From: Alphaproteobacteria bacterium
GTDB lineage: Bacteria > Pseudomonadota > Alphaproteobacteria > UBA6615
Direction of reading: 5' to 3'
Assembly (NCBI GenBank): GCA_021774575.1
Contig: JAJFIX010000009.1
Span: 186,001-250,000, forward strand
Length of the DNA: 64,000 nucleotides
Positions 2,749 to 43,713 of this stretch are shown piece after piece. Made by a program: the position numbers and the translations under genes. The notes under the pieces were generated by a model. It did no database searches and had not been told where the DNA came from. It saw only the letters and a program-made list of their open reading frames with translations. Positions within the stretch are counted from its first letter, which is position 1, and each line of letters opens with the position of its first letter.

Positions 2749-2995
2749 AAAAGCCCAGAACACCATCCTTTGAACGAATGGCGTCTTGAAAAGGGTGTGT
2801 CCATTGGGCGTTGGCACTATCCGTTACTTATGGATATGTCGCCAGCGATGCCCTTTGGTCCCCCCCCAACTGCCTGGTTGCCGTGGCGCGCCGAAAATGA
2901 ACCCCCCCACTTCGGCTGCCAATCAAGGCTACAGGCCCGGCTGGCAATCTTAAAGAACGTCGTTGCCTGACCGAGGGCGAATTAGACCCTCGGAC
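2711..2995 (-). ncRNA. Possible structured non-coding RNA or long 3' UTR ending at a strong terminator
   Basis: The minus strand between the SDR stop (3082) and the terminator at 2711-2748 has no credible ORF but several paired segments. These are CCGAGGG/CCCTCGG (2971-2977 with 2987-2993), GGTTGCC with GGCAATC (near 2876 and 2943), GCCGAA/TTCGGC (near 2899 and 2921), and a TATCC/GGATA hairpin (near 2818-2835). The terminator implies a transcript on this strand. It could be a free-standing RNA of the 6S type or the 3' UTR of the SDR gene. I could not match it to a known family from memory. Confidence 0.25.
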
Positions 2996-3081
2996 CGGGG
3001 TAGATTCCAGCGAATAATTGGCGCAGCCTGTGGATAAGCTCGAATTTCTGTGGATAACTTCTCCTGGCGGCTGTGACGGCG

Positions 3082-3912
3082 TTACGTCGCCGTGTAACCG
3101 CCGTCAATATATAGCGTCTGTCCGGTGCAAAAAGCCGATGCAGCCGAGACCAAAAACATGAGGGCGCCAACAAGATCCGAAGGCTCACCGAGCCGTCCCA
3201 GAGGAATGCGCTCGAGCATGCCTTCGCGCACGGCGCGGCCGGGTCCCTCGGCGTCATACATCCATTTGGTTAAATTCGACCGAAAAACCGTCGGACCGAT
3301 GGCATTAACGTTGATCCCATGGCGGCCCCATTCGCAGGCGAGGGTTCGGACCAGTCCATCAATTGCTGCTTTTGACGTGCAATAGGCGCTGTAACCGCCA
3401 TCGTGGCCATGTCGGCCTCGGGTTGACGAGACGAGAACGATTTTACCGCCTGATGCGCCGGAACGTCCATTGGCCTGTTTAATCATTTGGCGTCCGGCAG
3501 CTCGGCAAATAAGCCACGGTCCGGTGGTATTAGCTTCAATAACGCTGTTCCAATCGGCGACCGGCATTTCGGTTGCAGGTGCGACAATATTGATCCCCGA
3601 CGCGACAATAACAATATCGAGGCTACCATGGGCGGCCACCGCCGTTTCGACCAATTGTTTAGCCAAGGCCTCGCTATTGGGTCGCAAATTCAGAATATTA
3701 GGCTCTGTCCCGGTGAGGGCGCTGATCTCGGCGCGTAGATCAGCGAGTTCGGCCTCTCCTTCTCCCGCCAGGGTGAGCTTGGCACCGGCGGCCGCAAGAG
3801 CAAGGCTGGCGTTTCGTCCAAGTGTGCCATTCGCGCCGGTGATAAGCGCGGACTTTCCGGCAATGGCGAATAGGTCGAAGGGGGCGTGCAATGGTGTCGA
3901 GTGGTTTGGCAT
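3082..3912 (-). CDS. Short-chain dehydrogenase/reductase (SDR), classical type
   Basis: 276 residues, starting at the ATG at 3910-3912 behind an AAGGAC ribosome site. The Rossmann cofactor motif TGANGTLG is at residues 25-32, the catalytic Ser is near 162-163 (VLVSST), and the YxxxK pair is Tyr177/Lys181. The C-terminal motif DGGYT is typical of the gluconate 5-dehydrogenase/3-oxoacyl reductase group. It catalyses NAD(P)-dependent oxidation or reduction of a hydroxyl/keto group in the cytoplasm; the substrate is unknown. It is divergent from a small membrane protein gene and two zinc alcohol dehydrogenases, so a shared polyol or sugar-acid pathway is possible but not shown. Confidence 0.85.
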   Translation of the reverse strand: MPNHSTPLHAPFDLFAIAGKSALITGANGTLGRNASLALAAAGAKLTLAGEGEAELADLRAEISALTGTEPNILNLRPNSEALAKQLVETAVAAHGSLDIVIVASGINIVAPATEMPVADWNSVIEANTTGPWLICRAAGRQMIKQANGRSGASGGKIVLVSSTRGRHGHDGGYSAYCTSKAAIDGLVRTLACEWGRHGINVNAIGPTVFRSNLTKWMYDAEGPGRAVREGMLERIPLGRLGEPSDLVGALMFLVSAASAFCTGQTLYIDGGYTAT

Positions 3913-4128
3913 GTTTGAGGTCCTTGTGGTTCTTAAAAGAGCATTCCACAAAAAGATGCGGTCGCATGACATATTCGTGCAGGAAGGCCTGGATTTTGGG
4001 TGCCGGTCGAGGCACACTAGAGAATACGGGCGCGTTCTTTAGCACCCATGAGGGGGCATGTTTTATCACACTCTTATATCCGGGCGGCTCGTTTTGTCTG
4101 GAGAGGGTGCTGGCCGGGGGGACCAGGG

Positions 4129-39670: not shown

Positions 39671-40675
39671 ATGAGCGATACATTCCGGGCCCTGGTCATT
39701 GACCAGAAGGACGAAAAAATTGTCAGCGATATAAGATCGCTCGATCCGGCGGATTTGCCGACTTTCGATACGCCTTCGGTGACTGTTGCCGTCGAATATT
39801 CTGATGTGAATTATAAAGACGGGCTGGCGATGAACGGGCTAGGCGGTTTGGTCAGGTCTTACCCCCATGTCCCGGGCATTGATCTTGCCGGTATTGTCGA
39901 GGCGTCGGACGATCCACGCTATCAACCCGGCGACCGTGTGATGAGTACCGGTTGGTATGTCGGTGAGCGATATTGGGGCGGTTTTGCACAAAAAGCACGG
40001 GTCAAGGCGGGTTTTATCGTGCCCATTCCCGATGCTCTGACTTCGCGCCAGGCAATGGCGGTCGGCACGGCTGGATTGACCTCCATGCTGGCAATCCAGG
40101 CTCTCGAAGATCATGGGATGACCCCTGAAACCGGGCCTGTTCTGGTGACCGGCGCGGCCGGTGGGGTTGGGTCTGTCGCGACGGCTATTCTAGCCAATTG
40201 CGGCTATGAGGTGATTGCCTCCACCGGGCGACGCGAACTTGATGGATATTTAACCGATTTGGGCGCGGCGTCTATCATTGATCGGGCGGAATTGTCGGAA
40301 GGAAAACCCCGGCCTCTCGACAAACAACGCTGGGCAGCTTGTGTCGACAGTGTCGGCGATACCACCTTGGCGACCGCCCTGGCCCATTTGCAGGCTCGCG
40401 GTTCGATTGCCGCCTGTGGGCTCGCCGGTGGGGCGGCGTTGCCAACGACGGTCATTCCGTTTTTGTTGAGGGGGGTCAATTTGCTTGGCATAAATTCTCT
40501 CGATACGCCCTTTGAGACGCGGGTCGCCGCCTGGGACCGGATCGCCCGAGATCTTCCTATGGCCAAGTTGGAGGCGATGATGAGCGAGGTCGGGTTGCAA
40601 GAGTTAGTCGGCCTAGGTGGTGACATTCTTGCGGGCAAGGTTCGTGGCCGCACCGTGGTCGATGTTAACCGCTGA
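39671..40675 (+). CDS. acuI: Acrylyl-CoA reductase-type quinone oxidoreductase (AcuI/YhdH family)
   Basis: 334 residues. MDR fold without zinc ligands: EYSDVNYKDGLAM and PGIDLAGIV near the N-terminus, VTGAAGGVGSVATAIL as the NADPH motif, and GTAGLTSMLAIQ. These match the AcuI/YhdH group, which reduces acryloyl-CoA to propionyl-CoA and protects against acrylate, including that made from DMSP. It lies 28 bases after valS and may be cotranscribed. No other DMSP genes are in the window. Confidence 0.88.
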   Translation: MSDTFRALVIDQKDEKIVSDIRSLDPADLPTFDTPSVTVAVEYSDVNYKDGLAMNGLGGLVRSYPHVPGIDLAGIVEASDDPRYQPGDRVMSTGWYVGERYWGGFAQKARVKAGFIVPIPDALTSRQAMAVGTAGLTSMLAIQALEDHGMTPETGPVLVTGAAGGVGSVATAILANCGYEVIASTGRRELDGYLTDLGAASIIDRAELSEGKPRPLDKQRWAACVDSVGDTTLATALAHLQARGSIAACGLAGGAALPTTVIPFLLRGVNLLGINSLDTPFETRVAAWDRIARDLPMAKLEAMMSEVGLQELVGLGGDILAGKVRGRTVVDVNR

Positions 40676-40848
40676 AACCATTTATCACGAAAATGTGAGC
40701 TACTTCATTCCCCCCTGAAGTGGCGGACTCTGTTATTGAGAAATGCTAAAATTTTTCAGTACGTTTCCGTCAATTTGCTCCCCCCCGATCATTTTATTTG
40801 ATGATAGGTGCGCGGAGCTTTGTGTCCATACTGGGGAGTAACGCAAAA

Positions 40849-41721
40849 ATGACAATTGTACGCGGTATCTATGATCAGATGATCGGTGCCATGAACGTGG
40901 CTGAACTTGAAATTCCAACTGCATGCGTAAAATTTTATAAAAAGGGAGACGATATCCCGCAAGCCGTGCTCGATTGCGAGCCCGAGGGTTTGACCCTGAC
41001 AAGTTGTCAGAGTACGCGCCAGGCTGGGTTTGGCGACAATATATTGCTCACCGCCGAGACAGTTGGGTGCGTTGCCGCTGCAATCAGTTTTGGCCTAGTG
41101 GATCAAAACCAGGACCAGCCGATGGGCGACAGCCTCGTCTATACCGATATCATGAAAGACCAGTCTGGCAAGGGTGAAGGTTTTGTCCCGCCGAGCCCAA
41201 AAGACTTTTCCGACGGAACCGTCTATGCCTGCGCTGCAGCCGGACGACCGGAGTTCGCTCTGTTTGGTGACGACGATACGGGAAGGTTCGAAAGTGTCGA
41301 CGCCGCGCGCAGTGCCATGGCTGACATGATGGCAATACAGCCCGGCGATACACAGGCGGTCTTTATCTATTCTCTCGATTTTGATGACGCCGACATTGTG
41401 CCCGATGTTGTTGTTCAAGCGGCGCGGCCGGTTGAACTCACGCGCATCATTCAGGCCTATCAGTTCAAAACCGGCAAGCGGGTCAATGCCAGCATGGGTG
41501 GCCTCAGGGTTGTCAATTCAGACTTGATCGTGCGGCCATATATATCGGGTGAGATGAATATCTCGACTGCCTGCTTGGGCGCACGCCTGATCGCAAAATG
41601 GGACGCGGATCGAATGGGGCTGGGTATTCCGTGGGCACAGTTCTCCGACATTGCCGACGGGATGGTTGCGTCACAAGGCGGTTTCCCATTCCAAGCCTAT
41701 CCAGGTGCCGCACCAAGCTGA
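40849..41721 (+). CDS. DUF169 family protein
   Basis: 290 residues from the ATG at 40849 (GGGGAG upstream). The DUF169 pattern is seen in the mid-protein motif TVGCVAAAISFGL (near 71-83) and in the C-terminal block NISTACLGARLIAKW with GIPWAQFSDIADGM. Several conserved cysteines occur in the N-terminal half (CVKFY, DCEP, SCQS, VGCV) and one in STACLG. Function is unknown; the domain is associated with anaerobes and sulfur or metal contexts. It immediately precedes a DsrC-cysteine desulfurase fusion (42-base gap), so a shared role in sulfur transfer is the working inference. Confidence 0.8.
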   Translation: MTIVRGIYDQMIGAMNVAELEIPTACVKFYKKGDDIPQAVLDCEPEGLTLTSCQSTRQAGFGDNILLTAETVGCVAAAISFGLVDQNQDQPMGDSLVYTDIMKDQSGKGEGFVPPSPKDFSDGTVYACAAAGRPEFALFGDDDTGRFESVDAARSAMADMMAIQPGDTQAVFIYSLDFDDADIVPDVVVQAARPVELTRIIQAYQFKTGKRVNASMGGLRVVNSDLIVRPYISGEMNISTACLGARLIAKWDADRMGLGIPWAQFSDIADGMVASQGGFPFQAYPGAAPS

Positions 41722-41763
41722 ACTGCGCTGAACATAAACCCGTAGATCCGTGGGAGGCTGAGT

Positions 41764-43224
41764 ATGACGCTGCATTCGCTTGCGTTAAACCGCATCTATT
41801 ACATGTCGCGAACAACCGATACGCCGTTGACCGAGGCGCATATGCGCGTCTTGGAATATGCGTGGAATTACTATCGCAAAAACAGCGTCGGACCGCTTTT
41901 TCAAAACATAAAAAAGCATACGGGAGTCACCAAGGAAGAGCTGTCGTCAATGTTTCCGTCGGGCATCAGCTCGCTCTACACCTGGGTTGGTATTCCCATA
42001 CAAAGTCGCGATAAAGGCTGCAAACCCATGGCGACAATTGACGTTGAGAATCCGCGCGAGGTCTATTTTGATCACAATGCGACGACGCCTTTGCGGCGCG
42101 AGGTTGTTGATGCAATGGTCGATTTTCTGCAAGACCCCCAGTCCCATGGCAATCCATCCAGCTCCTACGATATCGGCAGTCGGGCCTATGACGTTATCGA
42201 ACGCGCCCGGGGCCAAATCGCCAAAGGGCTGGGTGTCGATTCCGGCGAAATTTACTTTGTTGGGAGTGGGTCCGAGGCAAACAACCTGGCGATAAAGGGG
42301 GTCGCTGAAAAATTTATCCAAGCAAATGCCGACGGTGATGCACCCGGCCATATCATCTGTTCGCGCGTCGAACACCCGTCGGTGTTGGAGACCGTTCGCT
42401 ATTTAGAGGATAATGGTTTCGATGTGACCTGGCTCGATGTGGATCGGGACGGGGTCCTTGGCGCCGATCAGGTCGCCGCTGCCATACGCGACGATACGGC
42501 AATCGTTTCGGTGATGGCGGCGAATAATGAAATTGGGACAATATACCCTTATGCCGAAATCGGCTCGCTCTGTGCGGCGCGAAATATTCCGTTCTTTGTT
42601 GACGCTATCCAGGCTTACGGGAAAATTCCGATCCGGCCGAAGGAAATGGGGATTTCCTTGCTATCGCTATCGGGACATAAAATTTACGCCCCTAAGGGGG
42701 TTGGGGCGATTTACATCGATAAGGACCTAGACCTTGCGCCGCTCATCCACGGTGGGTCGCAGGAATTGGGGGTCCGCGCTGGGACGGAAAACGTGGTCGG
42801 CATTATGGCCCTGGGTCTTGCCGCAGAGTTGTCATATGCGGAAATGGAAAGCCAGACGGCGCGCTATATAGAATTGCGGAGCTATTTTCTGGAACGACTG
42901 ACTGGGATTGTGCCCGGGGCAATTGTCAATGGAACGTTGGAAAACCGGCTGCCGCACAATCTGAGTATCGGGTTTCCTGGTGTGGATAGCGGCTCTTTAT
43001 TGCTCAGTCTCAACCAAATCGGCGTTGCCGTCTCGGCCGGGTCGGCGTGTAGCGCCAGCAGCAATAAAGTCTCGCATGTATTGGAGGCGATTGGTGCCGA
43101 CATTGATAAATTCGGCACGCTTCGCTTTAGCTTCGGCAATCAGACCGATATCGAGGATATTGATTATTTATTCACCCATATGCCGGCGATCTTAGCGCAG
43201 CTTGCGGCTGATGCGCGGGGTTAA
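41764..43224 (+). CDS. DsrC/TusE-like sulfur-carrier domain fused to a class V cysteine desulfurase (NifS/IscS type)
   Basis: 486 residues behind GGGAGG. Residues 22-90 resemble TusE/DsrC: LTEAHMRVLEYAWNYYRK matches the conserved LxxEHWEVVxFxRxFY helix, and MFPSGISSLYTWVGIP matches LFPxGPxxQxxxxAGLP. Cys86 (DKGC) stands at the carrier-cysteine position of the DsrC arm, while the second DsrC cysteine is absent, as in TusE. Residues 100-480 are a complete desulfurase: YFDHNATTPL, His204, PLP Lys306 (SGHK) and active Cys429 (GSACSASS). The enzyme would take sulfur from cysteine as persulfide and could pass it to its own carrier arm. An internal ATG at 42028 might also yield a free desulfurase. 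Confidence 0.85.
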   Translation: MTLHSLALNRIYYMSRTTDTPLTEAHMRVLEYAWNYYRKNSVGPLFQNIKKHTGVTKEELSSMFPSGISSLYTWVGIPIQSRDKGCKPMATIDVENPREVYFDHNATTPLRREVVDAMVDFLQDPQSHGNPSSSYDIGSRAYDVIERARGQIAKGLGVDSGEIYFVGSGSEANNLAIKGVAEKFIQANADGDAPGHIICSRVEHPSVLETVRYLEDNGFDVTWLDVDRDGVLGADQVAAAIRDDTAIVSVMAANNEIGTIYPYAEIGSLCAARNIPFFVDAIQAYGKIPIRPKEMGISLLSLSGHKIYAPKGVGAIYIDKDLDLAPLIHGGSQELGVRAGTENVVGIMALGLAAELSYAEMESQTARYIELRSYFLERLTGIVPGAIVNGTLENRLPHNLSIGFPGVDSGSLLLSLNQIGVAVSAGSACSASSNKVSHVLEAIGADIDKFGTLRFSFGNQTDIEDIDYLFTHMPAILAQLAADARG

Positions 43225-43230
43225 CCGGAT

Positions 43231-43713
43231 TTAACTGAGAAGGTTTTTTCGGTAAACGTCGATCTGGCCACGCAGGGACGATGTGTGGCCAATTTTTTTC
43301 CAGTCGCGACGGGTTAATATTCGTCCGGCGGTTTCGGTTGACGTATAAATTTTGCTACTTCCGAGGCGTTCCGCCTCAAACTCAAGTCGCGCGACAAGGG
43401 CGGTCGCGATCCCTTTGCCGCGTTCAGCAGGGGTGACCAGTAGTGCGGCCAGCCAGGGCCCTGAGCCAGTTTCTGCGCCAACAGAGTCTGATTTTAGGGC
43501 CGCAGTACCGACGGGCTGGTCATTCTCATCAAGGGCAACCAAACAGAGTGGTATCGCGTCGCGATTGCGACAGGCGGCAAGATCGGATGCGGCATCACCT
43601 GCGCCGCCAGGGCCGTACCACGGCGCCCACGCGTCGGCGTACCATCGAACGAGGTCCGGCTCCAACGCGGGTCGATCAGCGAGGTATTCGATTTTGAAAA
43701 TTGGCTCACCCAT
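43231..43713 (-). CDS. GNAT-family N-acetyltransferase
   Basis: 160 residues from the ATG at 43711-43713; a GTG at 43720-43722 is an alternative start. The acetyl-CoA loop motif is LLVTPAERGKGIATALVARLE (VxPxxRGxGxA). The C-terminal IYTSTETAGRILTRRDWKKIGH is typical of GNAT motif B. The substrate is unknown. It is convergent with the DsrC-desulfurase fusion, with only 6 bases between stops. Confidence 0.85.
   Translation of the reverse strand: MGEPIFKIEYLADRPALEPDLVRWYADAWAPWYGPGGAGDAASDLAACRNRDAIPLCLVALDENDQPVGTAALKSDSVGAETGSGPWLAALLVTPAERGKGIATALVARLEFEAERLGSSKIYTSTETAGRILTRRDWKKIGHTSSLRGQIDVYRKNLLS

Follow-up and report, generated by a model that had tools for sequence, protein, structure and literature searches.

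We found that two adjacent genes in the window (the whole 64,000-nucleotide stretch analysed, from an Alphaproteobacteria bacterium) encode a DUF169 protein and a 486-residue protein in which a DsrC-like domain is joined to a cysteine desulfurase domain. We slightly favor the reading that the pair is a two-gene sulfur-relay unit, in which a persulfide on Cys429 would move to a Cys86-bearing arm and from there to a partner, most likely the DUF169 protein. What is new in such a unit is a relay whose donor and terminal carrier are fused, together with a dedicated DUF169 partner. An earlier note on this DNA, made from the sequence alone, had proposed a sulfur-relay unit of this kind, and our analysis partly supports its interpretation. 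Of the three outcomes that the note had named as refuting it (a fold other than DsrC for the N-terminal residues, a variable Cys86 and a DUF169 adjacency that is not kept), we obtained none.

The DUF169 gene (PF02596, E = 4.2e-35; 290 amino acids) occupies positions 40849..41721 and the fusion gene (486 amino acids) occupies positions 41764..43224, both on the forward strand and 42 nt apart, as the earlier note had described them. By sequence reading, Shine-Dalgarno-like motifs lie 5' of both start codons on the forward strand: GGGGAG at 40833..40838 before the DUF169 ATG and GGGAGG at 41752..41757 before the fusion ATG at 41764. An acrylyl-CoA reductase/YhdH-family gene (39671-40675, forward strand) ends 173 nt 5' of DUF169, and a convergent GNAT gene lies 3' of the fusion. 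Within the GNAT gene, shortly past the fusion stop codon, is an intrinsic terminator-like hairpin of 10 pairs followed by a T run (43265..43291, forward strand), which is a consensus match only, the regional total of such matches being near the shuffle mean. Because of the 173-nt gap on the 5' side and the hairpin and convergent GNAT gene on the 3' side, the pair looks like a separate two-gene transcript. The acrylyl-CoA reductase/YhdH-family gene was not seen at the other four loci at which the pair was found. The G+C content of the pair is 0.538 versus 0.551 for the window, and the flanks are similar. An assembly or binning artefact was rejected, since the pair is located inside a 326-kb contig and is also carried by four other genomes.

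The DsrC-like domain comprises residues 1-86 (41764..42021, forward strand), with five helices and a flexible arm starting at approximately residue 81. The match to PF04358 (DsrC) spans residues 14-69 and scores 25.3 bits in the genome search and 23.1 bits in hmmscan of the whole protein, around the cut-off of 24.9 bits, which two orthologues exceed with 36.9 and 32.7 bits; the TIGR03342 cut-off of 53.5 bits is not reached (21.2 bits). A profile of three fusion N-termini, searched against 395 Desulfobacterota-group genomes, retrieved DsrC-sized genes with E values down to 1.8e-9, and a four-row N-terminal profile searched against the PDB retrieved DsrC chains at E = 1.6e-9. AlphaFold2 predictions of residues 1-99 from three sequences gave five helices, with a block-mean pLDDT of 78-89 over residues 1-80, and an arm (residues 81-99, including Cys86) with a pLDDT below 50 that is predicted to be disordered. 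In a Foldseek search against the PDB, the top eight matches all belong to the DsrC family, beginning with the D. vulgaris protein (TM 0.66) and ending with that of P. aerophilum, with TM scores of 0.53-0.66 and probabilities of 0.96-1.00 (1.00 in seven of the eight), and no credible match was found below them. Chance resemblance to DsrC is ruled out by the profile, genome and fold searches; judged from these profiles and models, the N-terminal domain is homologous to DsrC, as the E values of 1.6e-9 in the PDB and down to 1.8e-9 in the genomes argue for homology rather than chance.

Compared with TusE, DsrC and DsvC, the domain shares the helical core, the FPxG...G(I/L)P element and a flexible arm with one terminal cysteine, but ~35 residues are missing at its N terminus relative to DsrC, its GxP-to-Cys86 spacing is three residues longer than the GxP-to-CysA spacing of DsrC, and its chain continues into the desulfurase, whereas those carriers are free proteins of ~110 amino acids with CysA in the penultimate position. 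Cys86 (codon 42019..42021, forward strand), the equivalent of CysA, the penultimate DsrC/TusE cysteine, is followed by a lysine and is invariant in all five fusions. In the alignment of the five orthologues with DsrC, the CysB position is occupied by an invariant Tyr72, so that the second conserved cysteine of dissimilatory DsrC is missing. CysB is also missing in DsrC proteins of organisms without DsrAB, which have Ala, Ser or Thr instead (PMC3397948). The earlier assignment of this domain to TusE/DsrC thus stands with regard to homology, fold and Cys86, but the domain is DsrC-like rather than a full TusE/DsrC.

The C-terminal part, residues 100-480 (42061..43203, forward strand), is predicted from profile matches and a tree to be an active NifS/IscS-type (group I) cysteine desulfurase. 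It matches Aminotran_5 (PF00266) over residues 100-469 with E = 4.3e-70, and its best NCBIfam models are NifS TIGR03402 (412.5 of 530.75 bits) and IscS TIGR02006 (333.5 of 643.2 bits), both below the equivalog cut-offs. As had been claimed from the sequence, the domain is complete, at ~390 amino acids, and like the group I enzymes it possesses the PLP lysine, Lys306 in SLSGHK (codon 42679..42681), and the catalytic persulfide cysteine, Cys429 in the mobile GSAC loop (codon 43048..43050), both on the forward strand and invariant in the five orthologues. Unlike those enzymes, it falls in a separate clade, carries an N-terminal carrier domain and is linked to no Fe-S scaffold gene. The only cysteine columns of the fusion that are invariant in the five orthologues are 86, 270 and 429. 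A free desulfurase translated from an internal ATG at 42028, which had also been suggested, finds no support: this codon has no obvious Shine-Dalgarno sequence, and Met89 occurs in only two of the five orthologues.

DUF169 is a family of archaea and anaerobes to which no function has been assigned. The window's protein scores 121.9 bits against PF02596 (COG2043; cut-off 27 bits). It contains six cysteines, in line with the several noted before, and four of them, Cys53, Cys74, Cys128 and Cys242, are invariant in the linked orthologues. Cys53 and Cys74 are common to the linked proteins and to nine unlinked members taken for comparison from three genomes (G025, G819 and G821), and look like features of the DUF169 family. 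In contrast, a ~45-residue insertion with the invariant Cys128 was seen only in the linked proteins and in none of the nine unlinked ones. No solved relative of DUF169 was found by sequence, and a model built from three sequences gave no usable fold (pLDDT 32). In the window's genome, G385 and G024, the linked copy is the single DUF169 gene. In G025, six additional DUF169 genes of other subfamilies were observed (L132-L137), one with a ferredoxin-like 4Fe-4S stretch N-terminal to it in the same ORF; as a family, DUF169 may extend more widely into redox or sulfur functions.

Five fusions were found in all, mostly in metagenome-assembled genomes, and the four besides the window's come from the Thermodesulfobacteriota group. 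Among the 80 loci listed, the genome-contig scan contained at least two full-length fusions, in Syntrophus sp. PtaB.Bin001 (L003) and Thermodesulfobacteriota PL23b_bin.63 (L004), and genome searches added those of G385 and G916. No fusion was detected in a further 23 genomes belonging to the window's order or in 398 additional ones sampled from its phylum, and none in 154 more from the class that includes the Syntrophus genome or in 10 more from the order of G025; within this partial sampling of genomes, the fusions are rare. The earlier note had named adjacency to DUF169 as a point to check, and at all five loci the DUF169 gene lies directly upstream on the same strand, with gaps of 42 nt (window), -4 (L003), 17 (L004), -4 (L096) and 2 nt (L147), the two genes sharing a 4-nt ATGA overlap in L003 and L096. 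No other neighbor is conserved across the five loci. Sequence identities are only 52-59% for the desulfurase domain, 40-54% for the DsrC-like domain and 50-72% for DUF169, which indicates that the linkage has been kept while the proteins diverged considerably.

In a tree, the five desulfurase domains group together in one clade (support 100/100), apart from the housekeeping desulfurases; hence, the simplest reading of the tree is that the fusion arose once. The fusion is isolated in the window's lineage, and the IscS of the window's own genome groups with that of an Azospirillum metagenome-assembled genome, which suggests horizontal acquisition in this lineage, yet the G+C content is host-like. 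Plasmids gave no match to the N-terminal region and one partial DUF169 match only, and viral contigs gave matches to the desulfurase domain but no fusion, so spread by plasmids and viral carriage were both rejected. One viral contig (L180, IMGVR_UViG_3300035497_000275) carries a short ORF that weakly matches the DsrC-like profile (E ~1e-4) and also encodes a desulfurase relative. In the literature, with a search that was light on subscription journals, we found no description of a DsrC-like-desulfurase fusion or of a DUF169-desulfurase pair.

The window's genome is 96.93% complete. Profile searches of it returned no second DsrC/TusE match and no DsrE-family (TusBCD) match, which is consistent with the claim that the fusion skips the intermediate carriers. 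A different contig from that of the fusion (G000 contig C31, L202:4164-16001) bears a housekeeping cluster of iscR, NifS-like, IscS, sufB, sufS and sufU genes, along with IscA/SufA-type and ferredoxin-like genes, and mnmA is close by. With iscR, two NifS/IscS-type genes, sufB, sufS and sufU present there, a housekeeping role for the fusion was rejected; on this gene content the genome has a separate Isc/Suf set, and the fusion is therefore assigned as an accessory desulfurase.

In E. coli, sulfur is relayed by IscS, TusA, TusBCD and TusE in series, TusE being the last carrier before MnmA. The window's pair resembles this relay in having a desulfurase at one end and a TusE-like arm at the other, but the donor and the terminal carrier are one protein, TusBCD is missing from the genome, and the linked gene is DUF169 instead of mnmA. 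In the mechanism we propose, the desulfurase domain would form a persulfide on Cys429, and Cys86, at the end of the tethered flexible arm, would take the sulfur from it, in cis or across the dimer, so that one polypeptide would replace the four serial steps of the E. coli system. The arm would subsequently pass the sulfur to the co-encoded DUF169 protein via one of Cys53, Cys74, Cys128 and Cys242; this transfer is suggested by the gene linkage and the invariant cysteines. A persulfide on Cys86 is plausible by analogy with E. coli, where IscS and cysteine directly persulfurate DsrC, with the penultimate Cys111 as the sole site (PMC3397948), and the mobile Cys328 loop of IscS reaches acceptors from different directions, acting in trans for TusA (PMC2854127). 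More tentatively, the desulfurase with its own DsrC-type arm might charge a DUF169 enzyme that would convert the persulfide into some sulfur-containing product. If DUF169 is charged by the fusion, it would constitute a sulfur acceptor of a new class; the fixed linkage ties DUF169 to persulfide chemistry and provides a first lead on its function. The fusion of donor and carrier suggests that intermediate carriers are dispensable, and it makes it possible to measure transfer from donor to arm within one protein.

The main rival is an iron-sulfur role, in which the DsrC-like domain would serve for docking or targeting and the fusion would be a private cluster-assembly desulfurase for DUF169, itself an iron-sulfur or other metal protein; the sulfur would end in the DUF169 cofactor. 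NifS-type desulfurases serve cluster assembly, Cys53 and Cys74 are conserved in the wider family sample, and the G025 protein carrying the ferredoxin-like stretch would fit such a role. However, docking alone needs no invariant Cys86, and a NifU/IscU scaffold or carrier gene was recognized beside none of the five loci; we consider this explanation unlikely, and the remaining ones less likely again. The fusion might instead substitute for the tRNA-thiolation relay, giving sulfur to MnmA as TusE does, with DUF169 as an accessory. TusE holds the last place before MnmA, the domain is TusE-like with CysA and without CysB, and apart from the fusion the genome yielded no TusBCD/TusE match, but mnmA sits beside the iscR-nifS-iscS-suf cluster on the other contig and was recognized beside no fusion locus, and the fusion is missing from the 23 other genomes searched in the order, which leaves this substitution a slim chance.

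Selenium chemistry, with the fusion acting on selenocysteine and DUF169 in selenium trafficking, seems scarcely plausible: NifS-type enzymes can act on selenocysteine, but no selenium gene was recognized beside the five loci, and the model of the selenocysteine lyase SclA is matched weakly, at 97 bits versus a cut-off of 525. One DUF169 does occur in the co-occurrence list of a selenium study (PMC5322559). Production of sulfide or persulfide for redox signaling or stress defense, with a sensing or regulatory role for DUF169, is a minor possibility. Homologous AraC-type regulators (55% identity) flank the pair in two loci, suggesting inducible expression, but such a regulator was found neither in the window nor in L003 or L004. 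In Desulfovibrio alaskensis, a DUF169 gene, which may lie outside the linked subfamily, is located by a TauE/SafE-type permease gene, and its disruption gave high fitness under nitrate (PMC4001038).

In G385, genes for a PALP-rhodanese fusion protein and an AraC_binding_2 regulator lie upstream of the pair (L138:1572-2906, 2953-3987), and in G916 a convergent AraC regulator, which is 55% identical to that of G385, lies downstream (L147:9688-10707). Neither the PALP-rhodanese protein nor the AraC-type regulator turned up in L003, in L004 or in the window; in the lineage that has them, it is possible that they act as a sulfur source and a regulator of the unit.
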